Under the pieces are notes generated by a model. It did not search any database and was not told the DNA's origin. It was given only the letters and a program-made list of their open reading frames with translations. 64,000 bases of DNA from Planctomycetota bacterium (GTDB lineage: Bacteria; Planctomycetota; Planctomycetia; Planctomycetales; Planctomycetaceae), in the NCBI GenBank assembly GCA_030836185.1, contig JAURQH010000099.1, forward strand, positions 1 to 64,000, in the 5' to 3' direction. Made by a program: the position numbers and the translations under genes. Below, piece by piece: positions 5,623-13,810 of this stretch; position 1 is the stretch's first letter, and every line of letters begins with the position of its first letter.

Positions 5623-8600
5623 ATGAGGAAGTATTCAGGCTTTCTCAGCAAGACACTGTCACGGAACATTGAAACCATGCCAACCCGAAAAACCTATTGG
5701 GGGATCAGCCTGAAGCTGGCGCTCTACTTGGGGCTGCCGTTGCTGGTGACAGTCGTTGTCTGGTTGCAGGTCTTCGTTCCGGCGTCTCAAGACATCATGT
5801 TCGATCATGAAATGACCGACCTGTCTGATGAGAACGCTGTGCGTGGTGCGGAGCTGGAAGGTCAGTCGAAAGATTTTCTGAATGACTTCAACCTATTGGC
5901 TCGTAAGCTCGAAGAAGGTGATCACGACACGTTCGAATCGATGAGTGCCAAACTCGAATCGAAGTATGTCTTGATCGAAGTGCTGGAGACAGCATTGTCT
6001 GACGAAAATTCCACTCAATTGGAAATGAAAACCACTCTTAAACAAGGGACTGCCCAGGCTTATAAAAACAATCTCAGTTATCAAAAGTTCATTGATTCGA
6101 TTCAGGCCGAGGTCAAAGCTCATCCCGATTCGGAGCATGTCCTTACGGCGTTTCGAAAAGCCCGACTCGAAATCGACCCAACGAAGAAACCAGACAGCGA
6201 ATTATCTTACGAGGTCGAAAATCATGTCTTCTGGATCGGCTCGCAGATTGTTTCCCCAAACGAGGAAGGAGCAACAGGTCGTGTCTTGGTGATGGCATTG
6301 GGCTTTGATGAAAGACTGGCGAGGCTTATTGCCTCACCCCGTCACATGGCAATTCTGGCAGACCAAGATGGTCGCGTGATCCTGAACCCGTTCAGTTCAG
6401 AGCAAGTCGCGAACGAAGCGGGCGAGTTCGTGAATCTTTTGTCCGAAATGCCTGAGCCTTTTAGGGAAGGCCCATTACTGGCCGACACATCGAAATTTCT
6501 TGAGGCACCGGATTGGAATGCTGTGGGGTTGGGGGAAGTCTCCATTGATACATTGAAGCTTCCAGAAGTCGCATCAGAAGGCCTCTCATTGAAACCGGGG
6601 CAGATTTTCTATTACTGGGAATCAAAGGATGTCGGTCTCGAACCGGCGGAACTGGAAGTTGCTTCAATTGCTGTCAGGCGTGAAACGGCAAAATTATCAC
6701 GGCAAGAGTGGGATGCGTCCGATGAGCCGTTGATTCGAGGGGGAGGACTTTCTCCCACTGTGGCGACCATTCGGATTATGTCGTCTCGCCCCGAAGAAAT
6801 CCCCAAGCTTCAACAGCGACTGATCAATGCCGTCCAAGAGGAGTTTGTGAATCACACGGACATGAGTGCGGCTGCGAAAGAGGGTGCGTTGAGCAAACTC
6901 AATCGATTGGCACGACAAGTTCCAGATCCGTTTCAATGCACGACGAACCGATATTCGGGTGTTCAAATCCCACTCACGGTAAGCCCAACCTCAGACCTCA
7001 GTGGGTTTCTTTTGCTCCGTGGTGTGTTTGAGGAAGAAGTGAGAGCCGCCCTCGATGCGGAATTGAATCAAGAAAAATTGATGTTTATCGGAATGACATT
7101 TCTGACATTCGGAATTGTTTTCGTGATGGGACGACGGATTGGAAAAATCCTGGAACGGATGTCGGTTTCTGCGGAATCGATTTCTAATTTGACGTTCGAT
7201 CAGGATGCCGATGTCGAGACATGGGAAAAACAGGCAAATGCGGTTTCGTCGAGGCTCCCCACAGATCGGCAGGATGAGCTGGGGGTTCTTTCCCGGTCTT
7301 TCCAACGGATGTTGGTCGATATTCTGAATGCCCAAGTCGAACTGCGCAAACTGAATGCAGAACTGGAAGAGAGAGTCAAAAAAAGAACTCTCCAATTACA
7401 AGCCGCCAATGACGAACTGGGAGTTGCCAATAAAGAGCTAAAGCGAGGGCGCGACGAAGCCGAGCAGCTCTCTCGCAGTAAAGATGAGTTTCTTGCCAGT
7501 GTCAGTCACGAACTCAGAAACCCTCTCAACTGGTTGCATGGGTCAGTTCAGTTTCTGGAAATGACCACACTGGACGAACAACAACAACATGATGTGCAAA
7601 CAGTTCGCCGAGCGACGGAAGAGTTGGGAGCGCTGATCGAAGATATTCTCGATTATCAAAAAATCGTGATGAATGGGATGCCGATTGAAGTGAGCGAAGT
7701 GGAACTTGAGACACTTTTACGAGAGGTTTGGGATTCTCTGCGACTCATGGCGGAGAAGCACGAATCGGAACTTGATTTCCATTGGACAGAACCGGCTGGA
7801 ATGATCCAGACAGATCCTCGTCGATTCAAACAAATTGTCAAAAACCTGGCAGGAAACTCCTGCAAATTCAGAGACCCTGAAGGTAAACGACAGAATCAGG
7901 TCAAAGTGAATGTCGTACGACACGAAGATCACCTGAAGATCATTGTGTCTGACACGGGCCGCGGCATGAAGTCGGAAGAACAAGACAAGCTGTTTGTGAA
8001 ATTCCAAAAACTGTCTTCTCAAGAAGGAAACAAATCGGGGACCGGCTTAGGGTTGGTTATCACCAAAAGCCTCGTCGAACTCATGGGTGGAACTATCGAA
8101 TTTGAAAGTGAATACGGTGTCGGAACCACATTCACGATAAAACTTCCCCTGACCTATGAAACTGAACTGGTTGATGGAAAATTGGTCAGTGACGGGAAAT
8201 CTTCCGAGAGAATTCCATCCGAAGACACGATTCGGAATATGACTTCCGTCACTTCTCAACAACCACAAAAGCCCTCCAAGGTCATGGTGATTGATGACGA
8301 TCCCAAAATGCAGGAGATGATGAAACGCTACCTGACGGATCACGGTTTTGAAGTCATCATTGCCGTGGATGGAATTGAGGCATTAGGATTGGTCAAAAAA
8401 GAGGATCCCGACCTGATCACCCTCGATGTTAAACTACCAGAACTCGATGGATGGGCTGTGCTGGCAGCGCTCAAGACAGATGTCGAAACGGCCGATGTTC
8501 CAGTCATTATGACCACAACCTTGGACGACCGAGAAAAAGGGATGGCGTTAGGAGCCGATGAGTATCTTGTCAAACCGGTCGACTGGACTCATTTAGAACG

Positions 8601-9066
8601 CGTCATCCGCCAGTTTTCTCAGCAGGTGGAATCTCCCAAGGTGCTCGTCATTGAAGACGATGAACAAAATCGCGTCTTGTTAAGAAGACAGTTAGAGTCA
8701 TGTGGTTGGACCGTGGAAGAAGCCGAAGATGGTCGTAAGGCACTTGAGCGTTTAGGCGAAAATCTACCACAACTCATTTTACTCGACCTGATGATGCCGG
8801 TCATGGACGGGTTCGAATTTCTGGCGGAACGCCAAAAGTCAGCCGAGCTGCTCTCGGTGCCCGTCATCGTTGTGACGGCAAAAGAACTTACACCCAACGA
8901 GATTCAACAACTCCGAGGAAGTGTGATTCGCGTGCTGCAAAAGGGAACCTATTCACAACCAGAACTATTGGAAGAAATCCGAGGAGAACTGGAACGTCGT
9001 CATCGTGTAAGCCTCATTGATGATTCAACGATCTCTGCAAAATCAAACTCCGACCAGATTCAATAA
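5623..9066 (+). CDS. Membrane-bound hybrid histidine kinase with two C-terminal receiver domains
   Basis: An inner-membrane sensor kinase of 1147 residues. Order: TM1 about 28-48, a large extracytoplasmic sensor of roughly 430 residues (LADQDGRVILNP suggests a Cache-like fold, inference), TM2 about 487-504, HAMP, coiled coil, HisKA with phospho-accepting His629 in SVSHELRNPL, HATPase_c ending GTGLGLVITKSLVELMGG, then two receivers with predicted phosphorylated Asp935 (LDVKLP) and Asp1055 (LDLMMP). Both receivers keep the acidic pair and the distal Lys. The second ATG at 5677 is an alternative start; neither has a strong ribosome-binding site. It is followed by two more receiver genes, suggesting a phosphorelay. 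The signal sensed is unknown. Confidence 0.92.
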   Translation: MRKYSGFLSKTLSRNIETMPTRKTYWGISLKLALYLGLPLLVTVVVWLQVFVPASQDIMFDHEMTDLSDENAVRGAELEGQSKDFLNDFNLLARKLEEGDHDTFESMSAKLESKYVLIEVLETALSDENSTQLEMKTTLKQGTAQAYKNNLSYQKFIDSIQAEVKAHPDSEHVLTAFRKARLEIDPTKKPDSELSYEVENHVFWIGSQIVSPNEEGATGRVLVMALGFDERLARLIASPRHMAILADQDGRVILNPFSSEQVANEAGEFVNLLSEMPEPFREGPLLADTSKFLEAPDWNAVGLGEVSIDTLKLPEVASEGLSLKPGQIFYYWESKDVGLEPAELEVASIAVRRETAKLSRQEWDASDEPLIRGGGLSPTVATIRIMSSRPEEIPKLQQRLINAVQEEFVNHTDMSAAAKEGALSKLNRLARQVPDPFQCTTNRYSGVQIPLTVSPTSDLSGFLLLRGVFEEEVRAALDAELNQEKLMFIGMTFLTFGIVFVMGRRIGKILERMSVSAESISNLTFDQDADVETWEKQANAVSSRLPTDRQDELGVLSRSFQRMLVDILNAQVELRKLNAELEERVKKRTLQLQAANDELGVANKELKRGRDEAEQLSRSKDEFLASVSHELRNPLNWLHGSVQFLEMTTLDEQQQHDVQTVRRATEELGALIEDILDYQKIVMNGMPIEVSEVELETLLREVWDSLRLMAEKHESELDFHWTEPAGMIQTDPRRFKQIVKNLAGNSCKFRDPEGKRQNQVKVNVVRHEDHLKIIVSDTGRGMKSEEQDKLFVKFQKLSSQEGNKSGTGLGLVITKSLVELMGGTIEFESEYGVGTTFTIKLPLTYETELVDGKLVSDGKSSERIPSEDTIRNMTSVTSQQPQKPSKVMVIDDDPKMQEMMKRYLTDHGFEVIIAVDGIEALGLVKKEDPDLITLDVKLPELDGWAVLAALKTDVETADVPVIMTTTLDDREKGMALGADEYLVKPVDWTHLERVIRQFSQQVESPKVLVIEDDEQNRVLLRRQLESCGWTVEEAEDGRKALERLGENLPQLILLDLMMPVMDGFEFLAERQKSAELLSVPVIVVTAKELTPNEIQQLRGSVIRVLQKGTYSQPELLEEIRGELERRHRVSLIDDSTISAKSNSDQIQ

Positions 9067-9122: not shown

Positions 9123-9527
9123 ATGGCCAATATTCTGATCGTCGAAGACGACGACACCAATGTCAAGTTATTGCAACGGTTGTTAACGATGAAAGGCTAC
9201 CAGTTCAGTGTGGCGACCAACCAAAAAGAGGCTGTCGAAGCGGTTCGTCAAGAAATGCCCGATCTCATTCTCATGGACATACAGATGCCGGAAGAACCGG
9301 GCGGAAAAGTCTCTGCGACGGCAGGAATCGAAGCGATCCGTGAATTAAAATCTGACCAACAGACATCATCAGTCCCAATCATCGCCACTTCGGCTCATGA
9401 TCTTCCAGAACAGCGAAACCGCTTCAAAGAAGCCGGCTGCGATGACATACAAAGTAAACCCTACACCGATTTCAATGAGCTATTAGAGACCATCGAGCGG
9501 AATTTGAAGGGAACATCCGCATCATGA
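9123..9527 (+). CDS. Stand-alone response regulator receiver (DivK/CheY-like)
   Basis: A single receiver domain of 134 residues with no output domain. Acidic pocket EDDD at residues 8-11, phospho-acceptor Asp52 in LILMDIQMP, Thr/Ser switch in IATSAH, and conserved Lys in QSKPY. A short insertion after the acceptor (EEPGGKVSATAG) lengthens the beta3-alpha3 loop. Its stop overlaps the next gene's start (ATGA at 9524-9527), so the two are very probably translated together. It likely shuttles phosphoryl groups between the upstream hybrid kinase and another partner, as DivK or Spo0F do; the partner is inferred from position only. Confidence 0.9.
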   Translation: MANILIVEDDDTNVKLLQRLLTMKGYQFSVATNQKEAVEAVRQEMPDLILMDIQMPEEPGGKVSATAGIEAIRELKSDQQTSSVPIIATSAHDLPEQRNRFKEAGCDDIQSKPYTDFNELLETIERNLKGTSAS

Positions 9528-11329
9528 ATGCTGATCGATGGAATCGATTCGTGAAAGTCTCACGCGACGAAATTTTGGTCGCCATCGAGGCGGTCACACA
9601 GACCAGTGGTTTGCTTCTGGAGCAGACGGATGACCCCAGTTTGCAGGTTCCCGAACAGGTTCGTCGCGATCTGGAGACAGTTTATGATTCCTCTCGCGAG
9701 TTGTATCGATTTATCCGGGAAGTTCTCGAATCACCTGAACGCTATACAGACGATGCAGCAGATACTGAATCAGGTGATTCTCTACGAACTCTTCGACACG
9801 ATTTACGAAATCGCTTAAACGTCATACACGGACCATGTCAGTTCATGTTGATGGAAGAGCTTCCTCAGGAATCGAGAGGCCAAAGAGAGTTTCAGCAAAC
9901 ATTTCTGAGTGATGTTACCAGTATTCGTGACTATGCCAATCAAGCCGTCAATCGGTTGAATGAACTTTCCGGCATGGAAGGAGAACTGGGAGATGTTCGA
10001 AACCAAGAATCACTACGAGACGAGGTTTCGCAAACTCAAAGCGAATTAAAATTGAAGGAGCCGGTTCGCATTCGTGATAAGCCGGTCGAGCCAGCGCGAA
10101 TTCTCGTCGTGGACGACAACGAATTGAACCGAAAAATGCTCGCTCGATTCATGGAACATATGGGCCATCTTTCAGAGTTTGCATCTGACGGTCATGAAGC
10201 GCTTGAAAAAATTCAATCCACTGATTTCGATCTGGTCCTCTTAGACATCCTGATGCCCCGTATGAATGGCATCGAAGTATTGCATGAACTTAATAATCAG
10301 GGATTGCTCAGACATTTGCCGGTCCTGGTTCTCTCGGGACTCGATTCGAGTGATGAAATTATCCAGTGTATTGAACTTGGCGCGGAAGATTTCCTGTCTC
10401 GTCCCATCAACTTGACGCTGTTAAAAGCACGCGTCAATGCGTGTCTGGAAAAGAAACGTTTGCGAGAACGTGAATTCAGCCAGTTCTTTCCACGCGAGAT
10501 CGCCCGCCAAGTGGCACTACGTCCCGAGATGCTCGATGAGGGGCGAGAGGCCGATGTCAGCGTATTGTTCTGTGATATCAAAAGTTTTTCGCGAATCTCT
10601 GAAAAACTTGAGCCGGAAAAAACAGTCCGCTGGATTCGCGATGTGATGGAAGTCCTCTCTGAATGTGTGCTCGATCATCAAGGAGTTCTTGTTGACTACA
10701 TTGGAGACGAATTGGTTGCGATGTGGGGTGCTCCCACCGAGCAACCCGATCATACAAAACTCGCCTGCCGATCAGCATTGGCGATGGTGGAACGACTACC
10801 GGAAATCAGTCGTAAATGGCATCCCGAACTCGGAATGCCCACGCAAGTCGGCATTGGAGTCAATAGTGGCAAAGCCCATGTTGGAAATACCGGAACAGCT
10901 CGACGCAGAAAATATGGCCCTCTTGGCAACACCGTTAATCTTGCCAGTCGCGTGCAGGGTGCCTCTCGCTATCTACAATCGAGTTTGTTGGTGACGGGCG
11001 CCACCTTTGATCAACTCGACGCAAACGAATTCTCATCGAGGCGTCTTTGTACTGTCAAAGTCAACAATATCGAAGAGCCCGTAATCCTGCATGAAATTGT
11101 TTCTCTGGAAACAAATGATTGGTCGGGATTGAGTGAGAGGTACGAACAGGCTTTGGTGGCGTTTGAAAGCCGTGAGTTCCGACTGGCAGCCTCGATGTTG
11201 GGTGATCTTCTCGTACATCACCCGAGTGATGGCCCTTCGTTATTATTAATGTCACGTGCCGTCAATGAATTGATCAATGATTCTAGCGAAGAAGACTTTG
11301 ATCCGGTTTGGCCCCTTTCCGGCAAATAA
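9524..11329 (+). CDS. Response regulator with class III nucleotide cyclase output
   Basis: A cytoplasmic protein of 601 residues. The N-terminal helical region contains HDLRNRLNVIHG (His92), resembling a histidine-kinase dimerisation helix but without an ATPase domain. Next is a receiver (about 190-310) with VVDDNE and acceptor Asp241 (LLDILMP); the usual Lys before Pro is Arg293 (LSRPIN). Then a class III cyclase domain (about 340-530). Metal-binding Asp351 (FCDIKSFS) and Asp395 (YIGDELVAMWG) and the NLASR transition-state residues are present. The two base-selecting positions read Asp391 and Lys463 instead of the Lys/Asp of typical adenylate cyclases. Product (cAMP or cGMP) is therefore uncertain. 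It overlaps the preceding receiver gene. Confidence 0.9.
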   Translation: MNADRWNRFVKVSRDEILVAIEAVTQTSGLLLEQTDDPSLQVPEQVRRDLETVYDSSRELYRFIREVLESPERYTDDAADTESGDSLRTLRHDLRNRLNVIHGPCQFMLMEELPQESRGQREFQQTFLSDVTSIRDYANQAVNRLNELSGMEGELGDVRNQESLRDEVSQTQSELKLKEPVRIRDKPVEPARILVVDDNELNRKMLARFMEHMGHLSEFASDGHEALEKIQSTDFDLVLLDILMPRMNGIEVLHELNNQGLLRHLPVLVLSGLDSSDEIIQCIELGAEDFLSRPINLTLLKARVNACLEKKRLREREFSQFFPREIARQVALRPEMLDEGREADVSVLFCDIKSFSRISEKLEPEKTVRWIRDVMEVLSECVLDHQGVLVDYIGDELVAMWGAPTEQPDHTKLACRSALAMVERLPEISRKWHPELGMPTQVGIGVNSGKAHVGNTGTARRRKYGPLGNTVNLASRVQGASRYLQSSLLVTGATFDQLDANEFSSRRLCTVKVNNIEEPVILHEIVSLETNDWSGLSERYEQALVAFESREFRLAASMLGDLLVHHPSDGPSLLLMSRAVNELINDSSEEDFDPVWPLSGK

Positions 11330-11436
11330 AGATTCGCTATAAATCGGGCATCTATTCGTTTTTCTTCTTTTTTGATGTCCATGAGCAGCCAAACATCGTA
11401 TTCACTCTACGTCCAGCATTCCAAGAGAACGAATCG

Positions 11437-11814
11437 ATGCCCAAAATGCTCTTTCTTCCCAGAGGCTATCTCACCGTAGTCGCTTTATTCTGGGCTTACG
11501 ATTCAGGTTTGTTTGATTCAATCGCTCGATCTCCAAACTCTCCTACAGCAACATCTATTTCAGAGTGGCTGAAGGTTGAGGAAAAAGCAGAGCCCGAGAT
11601 CACACCAATCATTGACTCAATGCCTCCCGCAGAATTTGCAACTTTGAAGGATGAGATCCTTCAGGAACTCTCCGCGTTCGACCAACAATCGACACACTCT
11701 TCGCAAACATCGTTTGATAGTTTGCAAATGAATTCCGTCGAAGAGGATCTACCCCAGAAACGCAGTGAAGTTCCGCGAGGTATTAAGAATTATCTGCATA
11801 AAATCTTTCGCTGA
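11437..11814 (+). CDS. Small protein of unknown function
   Basis: No recognised family. From the ATG at 11437 (purine-rich AAGAGAAC upstream) it encodes 125 residues. There is a mildly hydrophobic N-terminal third (MLFLPRGYLTVVALFWAYDSG), an acidic middle rich in Glu, Ser and Pro, and a basic tail. The same frame stays open back to 11308, but that part includes a poly-Phe run and overlaps the cyclase gene. It lies between the cyclase and the CNB-kinase genes on the same strand, so it may belong to the signalling cluster. Confidence 0.5.
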   Translation: MPKMLFLPRGYLTVVALFWAYDSGLFDSIARSPNSPTATSISEWLKVEEKAEPEITPIIDSMPPAEFATLKDEILQELSAFDQQSTHSSQTSFDSLQMNSVEEDLPQKRSEVPRGIKNYLHKIFR

Positions 11815-11956
11815 TCGGAAAACTCGTCGAGAATTAGGCAGAATTGATCGCTGATCGCCTGTTTTTGTGTTGGTGACAAAAGAGAACCTTGAGTGTCGTG
11901 AGCACAGTGGGATACACTGAAACACTTCATTTGTTTGTTCTTTAAGGTGATTCCGC

Positions 11957-13810
11957 ATGTCGTCGGGCCATCCTCATTCACTCGAAGAGTTTCTGGATGA
12001 GTACGAATGCTCCTGGAAAAAAGGAGCACCGCTAGAGATCCACGGTTTGCTCGATCAGTGGGAGTCAGAACCACAAACGAACGAACAAACAACGGCTGAG
12101 CTTCTGGCCGAATTGATCATGATTGGTCTCGAATATAGTTGGCGTCAGCACGATCCCAGACAAACGGCGCCACCCGCTTTGGGAACTCTGGCAAATCTCG
12201 ATCAATCTCTACAACAGAAACTCGCTTCCGCAGATTTAATTGGCCAAATACTCATCGATGAATTCCGCACCCGACACCGATGGGGAGACCGGCCCACTGT
12301 GGACGACTTTGAACAACAATACCCAGAGCATGTTTCAAAAGTTCGAGACGATCTGGAAAGTCTCGAACAGGAATACGCTCTCGAAACATCGATTCGCAAG
12401 CTGTTCGTGGAATCTGAAGATTCTGACGCCGTGAAACCTGACGCCGGCATGTTGAAGATTTCGATTTCTGATTTCCTCTCAGGCGTTTATCCGTTCAGTG
12501 AACTTCCGGTCGAACTGAAAGAGGAACTCTCGGCGACCGCTCTGGAGAAAACCTATGCGGCCGGTGATTACCTCATGCGTCAAGGATCGGCATCTGAGTC
12601 ATTAATGGTCATCATGGAAGGTATTGCACAGGTCACCATCAAAGCTGTCGAGACGGACAAGACCGAGCAGGAACTCGCACAAGTGGGCGTCTACTCATTG
12701 TTGGGAGAAATTGGGCTTTTAACTGGCGAGGTTCGCTCAGCCAACATCATCGCCATGACTCCCATGAAGGTCGCCGAAATTCGTTATGAGTCTTTTCAGG
12801 CATTGACGACTCGATTTCCGACGTTGAACATGCTGCTGTCAGAATTGGTCGCCCAGCGTGTGGGAACCATTTCGACGGATATCATGTTTGGAAAGTCACT
12901 GGGAGGATACGATTTTCGCCATCGTCTGGGACGAGGCAGCATGGGAATCGTCTATCTTGCCGAAGATCAACAATCAAGTCGAAAAGTTGCCGTCAAAATG
13001 CTACGGCATGACCTCGTTTACGACCGGCAGGCGAGTCTTCGATTCCGACGAGAGGCAGAGGTTGTTCGTCGGCTGAAGCATGAAAACATTATCGAAATCT
13101 ACCGTGAGTTTTCGGCCTACAACACGTTCTTTCTTTCGATGGAATATTGTCGGGGCTGCACACTGGGGGACGCGATTGAACAACACGCGCCGTTTTGCCT
13201 GGAAGATGTTCGTAAAATCGTGGGCCAATTGGCGGCCGCCTTGCATCATGCACACAGCCAGGGAGTCATCCATCGGGATCTCAAGCCTGCAAATGTCATG
13301 CTGACGGCAGAGGGAACCTTGAAGTTGACCGACTTTGGACTGGCGAGATCTGTCGAGTGCCTAAAAATGACCGCTCATGGCCAGATGTTGGGAACTCCAC
13401 GATATATGCCCAGCGAACTGCTGGGAGGCGGTGAAGCTGATGAGCGTGCAGACCTATATGCTTTGGGAGCAATTCTCTGGGAACTATTGACCGGAGAGGC
13501 TCTGTTCACATCGAAGGACATCGTCTCGTTACTGCGGGAACAGTTACAATGGCAACTCCCCAAACCCAACGACATCATCAACGGTCTCAGCGATGACCTC
13601 TATGAAGTATTGTCTGAAACTCTTTCGCAAGAGCCCACGGAACGTTCTCTCGACTTACAGTCGTTAATTGACTGGGCGGGACCAATCAATCCCGACTTCT
13701 GTCGAGTCATTGATCAAGGACAGGACGTTTCTGCTGAAGAATTAAATTCCACAATCCGGTTGACTGATGCAAAGGTCAAAGATCTCAACGATGTTTCGTC
13801 GACGAATTGA
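11957..13810 (+). CDS. Hanks-type Ser/Thr protein kinase fused to a cyclic-nucleotide-binding domain
   Basis: A soluble protein of 617 residues. Residues 1-165 are helical and resemble the N-terminal region common in planctomycete kinases. About 175-300 is a CNB domain whose phosphate-binding cassette keeps Gly250-Glu251 and Arg260 (LLGEIGLL then EVRSAN). About 315-575 is a complete kinase domain: glycine loop LGRGSMGIVYLAE, Lys347, catalytic HRDLKPAN with Asp441, DFG in LTDFGLAR, and GTPRYMPSE. No transmembrane segment is seen, unlike many PknB-type kinases. An AAGGTGA site precedes the ATG. With a cyclase two genes upstream, the likely activator is a cyclic nucleotide, an arrangement like eukaryotic PKG. 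Confidence 0.93.
   Translation: MSSGHPHSLEEFLDEYECSWKKGAPLEIHGLLDQWESEPQTNEQTTAELLAELIMIGLEYSWRQHDPRQTAPPALGTLANLDQSLQQKLASADLIGQILIDEFRTRHRWGDRPTVDDFEQQYPEHVSKVRDDLESLEQEYALETSIRKLFVESEDSDAVKPDAGMLKISISDFLSGVYPFSELPVELKEELSATALEKTYAAGDYLMRQGSASESLMVIMEGIAQVTIKAVETDKTEQELAQVGVYSLLGEIGLLTGEVRSANIIAMTPMKVAEIRYESFQALTTRFPTLNMLLSELVAQRVGTISTDIMFGKSLGGYDFRHRLGRGSMGIVYLAEDQQSSRKVAVKMLRHDLVYDRQASLRFRREAEVVRRLKHENIIEIYREFSAYNTFFLSMEYCRGCTLGDAIEQHAPFCLEDVRKIVGQLAAALHHAHSQGVIHRDLKPANVMLTAEGTLKLTDFGLARSVECLKMTAHGQMLGTPRYMPSELLGGGEADERADLYALGAILWELLTGEALFTSKDIVSLLREQLQWQLPKPNDIINGLSDDLYEVLSETLSQEPTERSLDLQSLIDWAGPINPDFCRVIDQGQDVSAEELNSTIRLTDAKVKDLNDVSSTN

Follow-up and report, generated by a model that had tools for sequence, protein, structure and literature searches.

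A planctomycete gene cluster predicted to couple a phosphorelay and a class III cyclase to a protein kinase with a cyclic nucleotide-binding domain

In bacteria, cyclic AMP (cAMP) and cyclic GMP (cGMP) are known chiefly as ligands of Crp-type transcription factors. The window analysed here, a 64,000-nucleotide stretch of a planctomycete genome of 5.16 Mb (G000), encodes on its + strand, in this order, a hybrid histidine kinase, a single receiver, a protein with HisKA-like, receiver and cyclase domains, a small protein, and a Ser/Thr kinase fused to a cyclic nucleotide-binding (CNB) domain, hereafter the CNB-kinase; a convergent M19 peptidase gene comes next. Each of the three genomes of the genus has the complete cassette in the same order. 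A predicted circuit, in which a phosphorelay controls synthesis of a cyclic nucleotide that acts on the neighbouring kinase, is the best reading of this locus and a reasonably probable one.

The closest counterpart in domain order is PKG, which likewise carries a CNB domain with a canonical phosphate-binding cassette N-terminal to a Ser/Thr kinase domain in one chain. Unlike PKG, the window kinase has one CNB domain instead of two, a PknB-like rather than an AGC kinase domain, its own N-terminal region of about 170 residues and a different linker. CNB domains attached to kinases of unspecified type are listed for bacteria in Table 1 of Kannan et al. 2007 (PMC2246266), and a kinome survey of Planctomycetota names CNB as one of the domains found with their Ser/Thr kinases (PMC11032199). 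The window CNB-kinase is a member of these surveyed fusions; the available portions of both surveys name the association only, with no cyclase linkage, pocket conservation or fixed linker. The first-pass annotation of this locus had compared the fusion to eukaryotic PKG and contrasted it with the usual Crp-type action of cyclic nucleotides in bacteria; these surveys had already recorded such fusions in bacteria. Thus, the CNB-kinase fusion itself is already on record and the system is a new arrangement of known parts. A search of part of the literature turned up no experiments on a bacterial CNB-Ser/Thr kinase.

Other parts of the locus resemble other systems. In Anabaena AphC-CyaC, a histidine kinase has been proposed to activate an adenylate cyclase by phosphorylation (PMC4284465), and a similar control is proposed here; unlike AphC-CyaC, the window has a HisKA-like domain without ATPase in the cyclase protein, a CNB-kinase neighbour and an Asp/Gly base-recognising pair. 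Synechocystis Cya2 (2w01) shares an acidic residue at the Lys position and a Gly at the second position, but it has Glu where the window cyclase has Asp, and an N-terminal CHASE2 instead of HisKA and receiver domains. The Crp/Clr family shares the cassette G-E-...-R-S with the window CNB domain, whose output is a protein kinase and not DNA binding.

The CNB-kinase and its family

The first-pass annotation had placed a cyclase gene, a small gene and a CNB-kinase gene in this order, and had named Gly250, Glu251 and Arg260 of the kinase as intact and its Lys347 and Asp441 as present; the open reading frames (9524-11329 for the cyclase, 11957-13810 for the kinase) agree, and all five residues are present. 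The features of the CNB-kinase are as follows.

11957..13810, + strand: CNB-Ser/Thr kinase, 617 aa (cNMP_binding, Pkinase)
12548..12808, + strand: CNB domain (PF00027, residues 198-284, E 3.9e-15) with the canonical phosphate-binding cassette GEIGLLTGEVRSANIIA (Gly250, Glu251, Arg260)
12809..12907, + strand: C-helix and short linker into the kinase N-lobe, of near-fixed length, with Arg301
12908..13648, + strand: PknB-type kinase domain (PF00069, residues 318-564, E 6.3e-55) with Lys347, HRD Asp441 and DFG Asp459

The CNB domain combines the PF00027 profile match with the Gly-Glu and Arg of the phosphate-binding cassette, and the Hanks-type, PknB-like kinase domain combines the Pkinase profile match with the catalytic Lys and the HRD and DFG motifs. 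The best PDB sequence matches of the kinase domain are PknB, StkP and PknA, and PknB is also the top fold match of its structure model (Z 31.9, root-mean-square deviation 1.8 over 255 residues); the fold matches listed are kinases only, with no CNB protein. An AGC-group kinase domain as in PKA and PKG is therefore not what the window encodes, PknB coming first by both sequence and fold, nor is there a CNB tandem, the protein having a single PF00027 stretch. Given this proximity to PknB, StkP and PknA and the fit of the model to PknB, the likeness to PKG is one of domain order and not of descent, and homology with PKG was rejected in favour of convergence. The PKG architecture proposed in the first-pass annotation thus holds for the order of the domains, but not for the kinase family or the number of CNB domains.

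In searches with a profile of the CNB domain and kinase N-lobe, 43 of 170 family genomes (21 of 58 genera) proved to encode the fusion, as did 36 of a sample of 392 genomes from across the phylum; by this measure, the CNB-kinase is a planctomycete-wide family. Matches spanning both domains were absent from the 46 genomes that were reached by way of other kinase loci, almost all of them from other phyla, and the matches listed in a contig scan were mainly other kinases, with one full CNB-kinase of this order (L049). A locus of a Nitrospirae metagenome-assembled genome (L119:470-1804) encodes the reverse order, kinase then CNB, in a single chain.

The pocket is nearly invariant across 75 aligned CNB-kinases: Gly250 is found in 75/75, Glu251 in 74/75 and Arg260 in 71/75. 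Lys347 is likewise present in all 75, and the HRD Asp in 74/74 of the members that reach it. The phosphate-binding Arg is lost in L038, L044, L045 and L158; L038 also lacks the pocket Glu, and L044 has HHD instead of HRD. The stretch from C-helix to glycine loop has 37 residues in 49 members and 33 in 16 (range 33-39, n = 75), and Arg301 of the linker is kept in 74/75. This near-fixed length is consistent with a mechanical coupling of CNB and kinase domains. In genus g56, two-CNB proteins (L142:1-1905, L145:38-2359) lie within about 7 kb of the CNB-kinase.

The relay and the cyclase

The genes and domains upstream of the small protein are as follows.

5623..9066, + strand: hybrid sensor histidine kinase, 1147 aa (Pfam: HAMP, HisKA, HATPase_c, two receivers)
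9123..9527, + strand: single-domain receiver protein, 134 aa (Response_reg E 7e-23)
9524..11329, + strand: protein with HisKA-like (no ATPase), receiver and class III cyclase domains, 601 aa (Response_reg, Guanylate_cyc)
9779..9967, + strand: HisKA-like phospho-acceptor domain, His92 in an RHDLRN motif (PF00512 26.3 bits, alignment)
10100..10435, + strand: receiver domain with phospho-acceptor Asp241 (PF00072 E 1.4e-26)
10544..11062, + strand: class III nucleotidyl cyclase domain (PF00211; Guanylate_cyc E 9.7e-22)

Together these encode the full set of parts of a phosphorelay: a HisKA, HATPase and receiver protein, an intermediate His domain and a final receiver. The hybrid histidine kinase, whose HAMP domain scores just below the Pfam cut-off, is kept with the cassette in congeners G001 and G002. 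The single receiver gene overlaps the cyclase gene by 4 bp, and its product has 97% and 81% identity in the two congeners. The HisKA-like domain at the start of the cyclase protein has no ATPase partner domain and could replace an HPt domain in the relay. Its PF00512 match is just below the cut-off (26.3 versus 26.9 bits); the equivalent domain of the relative L036 scores 34.0 bits, and alignment places an equivalent H-box in every cassette relative. The receiver that follows has Arg293 where Lys is usual. A single-sequence AlphaFold model of the cyclase protein was too poor to be used (mean predicted local distance difference test score 41.6); the N-terminal helices in it are compatible with a HisKA-type bundle, which proves nothing.

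The cyclase domain keeps the class III residues for metal binding (Asp351, Asp395) and for the transition state (Asn472, Arg476). Its base-recognising pair, located by a residue survey and alignment to Cya2, CyaB and CyaC, is Asp391/Gly465. At these positions adenylate cyclases canonically have Lys with Asp or Thr; in guanylyl cyclases the first residue is Glu and the second varies, the pair being Glu/Gly in Cya2 (PMC4215837). The window cyclase thus has neither canonical pair: the adenylate residues are absent, and Asp stands in place of the guanylyl Glu, with the second Gly as in Cya2. Lacking the adenine-specifying Lys and Asp/Thr, the cyclase may make either cAMP or cGMP.

The output domain with this unusual pair replaced one of another type. 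Cassette relatives in other genera and families have Lys/Asp cyclase domains, and the CHASE2-cyclase has Lys/Thr. The window receiver is 39-48% identical to those of the cassette relatives, against only 22-28% for the cyclase domain. In the cyclase tree, the window domain groups with stand-alone planctomycete cyclases of Asp type, apart from the Lys/Asp cassettes (supports 100/100 and 100/96), and it is 59-60% identical to those of L048 and L149 and 45% identical to the other cyclase of the window genome. The contrast in identity and the tree therefore show that the output domain was exchanged in this genus within a conserved relay, from the Lys/Asp type of L032, L036 and L186-L191 to the Asp/Gly type.

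These observations bear on the messenger. One alternative keeps the circuit but takes the enzyme with the Asp391/Gly465 pair to be a guanylyl cyclase, with the kinase as a functional analogue of PKG in bacteria. The closest solved cyclase domain is indeed that of the guanylyl cyclase Cya2 (84 bits), with its Glu/Gly pair; no acidic residue is closer to Glu than Asp, and the Gly matches. The other clear cyclase of the genome is also Asp/Gly, and none of the class III cyclases found there has the adenine-specifying Lys; because both clear cyclases are Asp/Gly, cGMP stays a candidate in this genome. Among single domains in the PDB, the CNB sequence is nearest to CNB-B of PKG I, with those of PKA and CAP next, and its cassette contains Arg-Ser, although Arg-Ser is present in the cAMP-binding CAP as well; Clr, a protein responsive to cAMP and cGMP alike, shares the G-E-R-S set (PMC10127613). 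On the other side, Asp for Glu was not found as a tested guanylyl determinant in the literature searched, and the canonical adenylate cyclases beside the CNB-kinases of three other genera somewhat favour cAMP as the family ligand. On balance, cAMP is somewhat more likely than cGMP as the product, and the cGMP circuit is possible but on the unlikely side. The fuller proposal of a convergent bacterial PKG, in which a relay-controlled Asp/Gly cyclase makes cGMP that switches on a CNB-PknB kinase of non-AGC origin, is unlikely.

Linkage and the proposed circuit

At least four genera have a cyclase gene adjoining the CNB-kinase gene; the cyclases are of three types and the gene orders differ. Outside the window genus, the CNB-kinase is divergent from a cassette of histidine kinase, receiver and HisKA-receiver-cyclase in L032, directly upstream of such a cassette in L036, and directly downstream of a cyclase, with 31 bp between, in L047 and L151 (a CHASE2-cyclase in L047). 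The cyclases in these three genera have the canonical adenylate pairs Lys/Asp, Lys/Asp and Lys/Thr. Three looser cases are not counted as operonic: in two genomes of genus g4 the cyclase is 3.7 kb from the CNB-kinase with unrelated genes between, in L162 the adjoining cyclase domain has a degenerate site, and in L179 a cyclase fragment lies 9 kb away. The linked state needs at least six changes in the CNB-kinase tree, where g4 and L162 also carry the linked label. With g4 as the fifth genus in an 8-kb count, a cyclase is seen within that distance in four or five genera, against 0.22 expected at random placement (P about 9e-5 for four, 4e-6 for five), an expectation that was built on cyclase counts and genome sizes and does not model possible clustering of signalling genes. 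Chance linkage was rejected under random placement, with that caveat. A general linkage was rejected too, most members being unlinked. The CNB-kinase/cyclase pair is a recurrent but facultative association, and the conserved gene pair that the first-pass annotation had proposed to look for exists throughout the genus and in at least three others, but not beside most of the 75 CNB-kinases.

The circuit finds its strongest single support in congener G001. Its only CNB proteins are a Crp-like protein and the kinase, and only the kinase has a canonical pocket; its one well-matched cyclase is that of the cassette, a second match being weak and partial. Thus, the sole canonical CNB domain and the cassette cyclase are encoded together. 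The Crp-like protein of the genus has an FNR-type cassette (TREEFAEA; GELAILEGGTREEFAEA in the window genome). The window genome has three CNB proteins: the Crp-like protein, the kinase and a CNB-ferredoxin (L152:15979-17772, contig C93), in which CNB domains, the first with a canonical phosphate-binding cassette, are joined to a 4Fe-4S ferredoxin-type protein within a multihaem cytochrome cluster.

In the proposed circuit, the hybrid histidine kinase (5623-9066) would sense a signal, and His-Asp phosphotransfer through its receivers, the single receiver and His92 domain, or both, would reach Asp241 of the cyclase protein. The phosphorylated receiver would then control the class III cyclase domain, whose product, a 3',5'-cyclic mononucleotide (cAMP somewhat likelier than cGMP), may bind the CNB domain of the kinase encoded nearby. 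A shift of the C-helix in that domain would be passed through the short, near-fixed linker to the N-lobe and change the activity of the PknB-type kinase, which would in turn phosphorylate targets of its own. The first-pass annotation had seen a complete local circuit here. Relay, cyclase and CNB-kinase are indeed present with intact catalytic and pocket residues, but the cyclase lacks the adenine-specifying pair; the upstream histidine kinase, the receiver (9123-9527), the HisKA-like His92 domain and the Asp391/Gly465 pair had all been missed.

Several observations weigh against the circuit. The CNB-kinase gene is preceded by a gap of 142 bp, and a promoter and terminator scan at the locus gave background level only and was uninformative. 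The CNB pocket has low confidence in the structure model. For most of the 75 CNB-kinases no cyclase gene lies within about 10 kb, although several contigs are short, and six other loci have the cassette, or the receiver and cyclase genes only (L188), with no CNB-kinase nearby; each half therefore works without the other. Finally, cyclases also adjoin kinases that have no CNB domain, and thus linkage by itself is no proof of an action of the nucleotide on the kinase.

In another account, no messenger passes directly between the neighbours. The cyclase product might act elsewhere, for example on the CNB-ferredoxin, while the kinase might use its CNB domain to sense a different ligand or simply to keep its shape. 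Such an account suits the unlinked CNB-kinases, the cassettes mostly seen without one and the four members that lost the pocket Arg, and other CNB ligands are known (PMC2246266; PMC10959531). It is nevertheless improbable, given that the pocket Glu and Arg are near-invariant phylum-wide, that linkage recurs with differing cyclase types and that G001 has no other canonical CNB protein.

Coupling might also run mainly in reverse, the kinase phosphorylating the receiver-cyclase or the small protein, with the CNB domain providing feedback. The small protein is the remaining member of the cassette:

11437..11814, + strand: small protein between cyclase and kinase, 125 aa (no Pfam match above cut-off)

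Its gene is at the same place in both congeners and evolves fast (66% identity to the nearest relative, against about 92-97% for its neighbours), with differences of 25/26/33 by codon position. In L201, L203 and L204, a planctomycete cyclase whose pair is Asp/Thr (GVTGDF.GDA..GFWGWP) is the immediate neighbour of a Ser/Thr kinase that has no CNB domain. Such neighbours suggest that kinases can act on cyclases, but no FHA or other phospho-Thr-binding domain was seen with Pfam in the cassette cyclase, and mainly reverse coupling is very unlikely.

In its predicted form, the relay-to-nucleotide-to-kinase circuit resembles a bacterial version of the PKA/PKG pathway, built from parts of bacterial origin. 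A kinase family that occurs phylum-wide with an intact CNB pocket, sometimes with its likely cyclase encoded alongside, makes it possible to test directly whether bacteria evolved cyclic nucleotide-dependent kinases independently. Because the other cassettes have canonical adenylate pairs and the window genus Asp/Gly, with relay and kinase neighbour kept, the natural swap provides a clean comparison of messengers.

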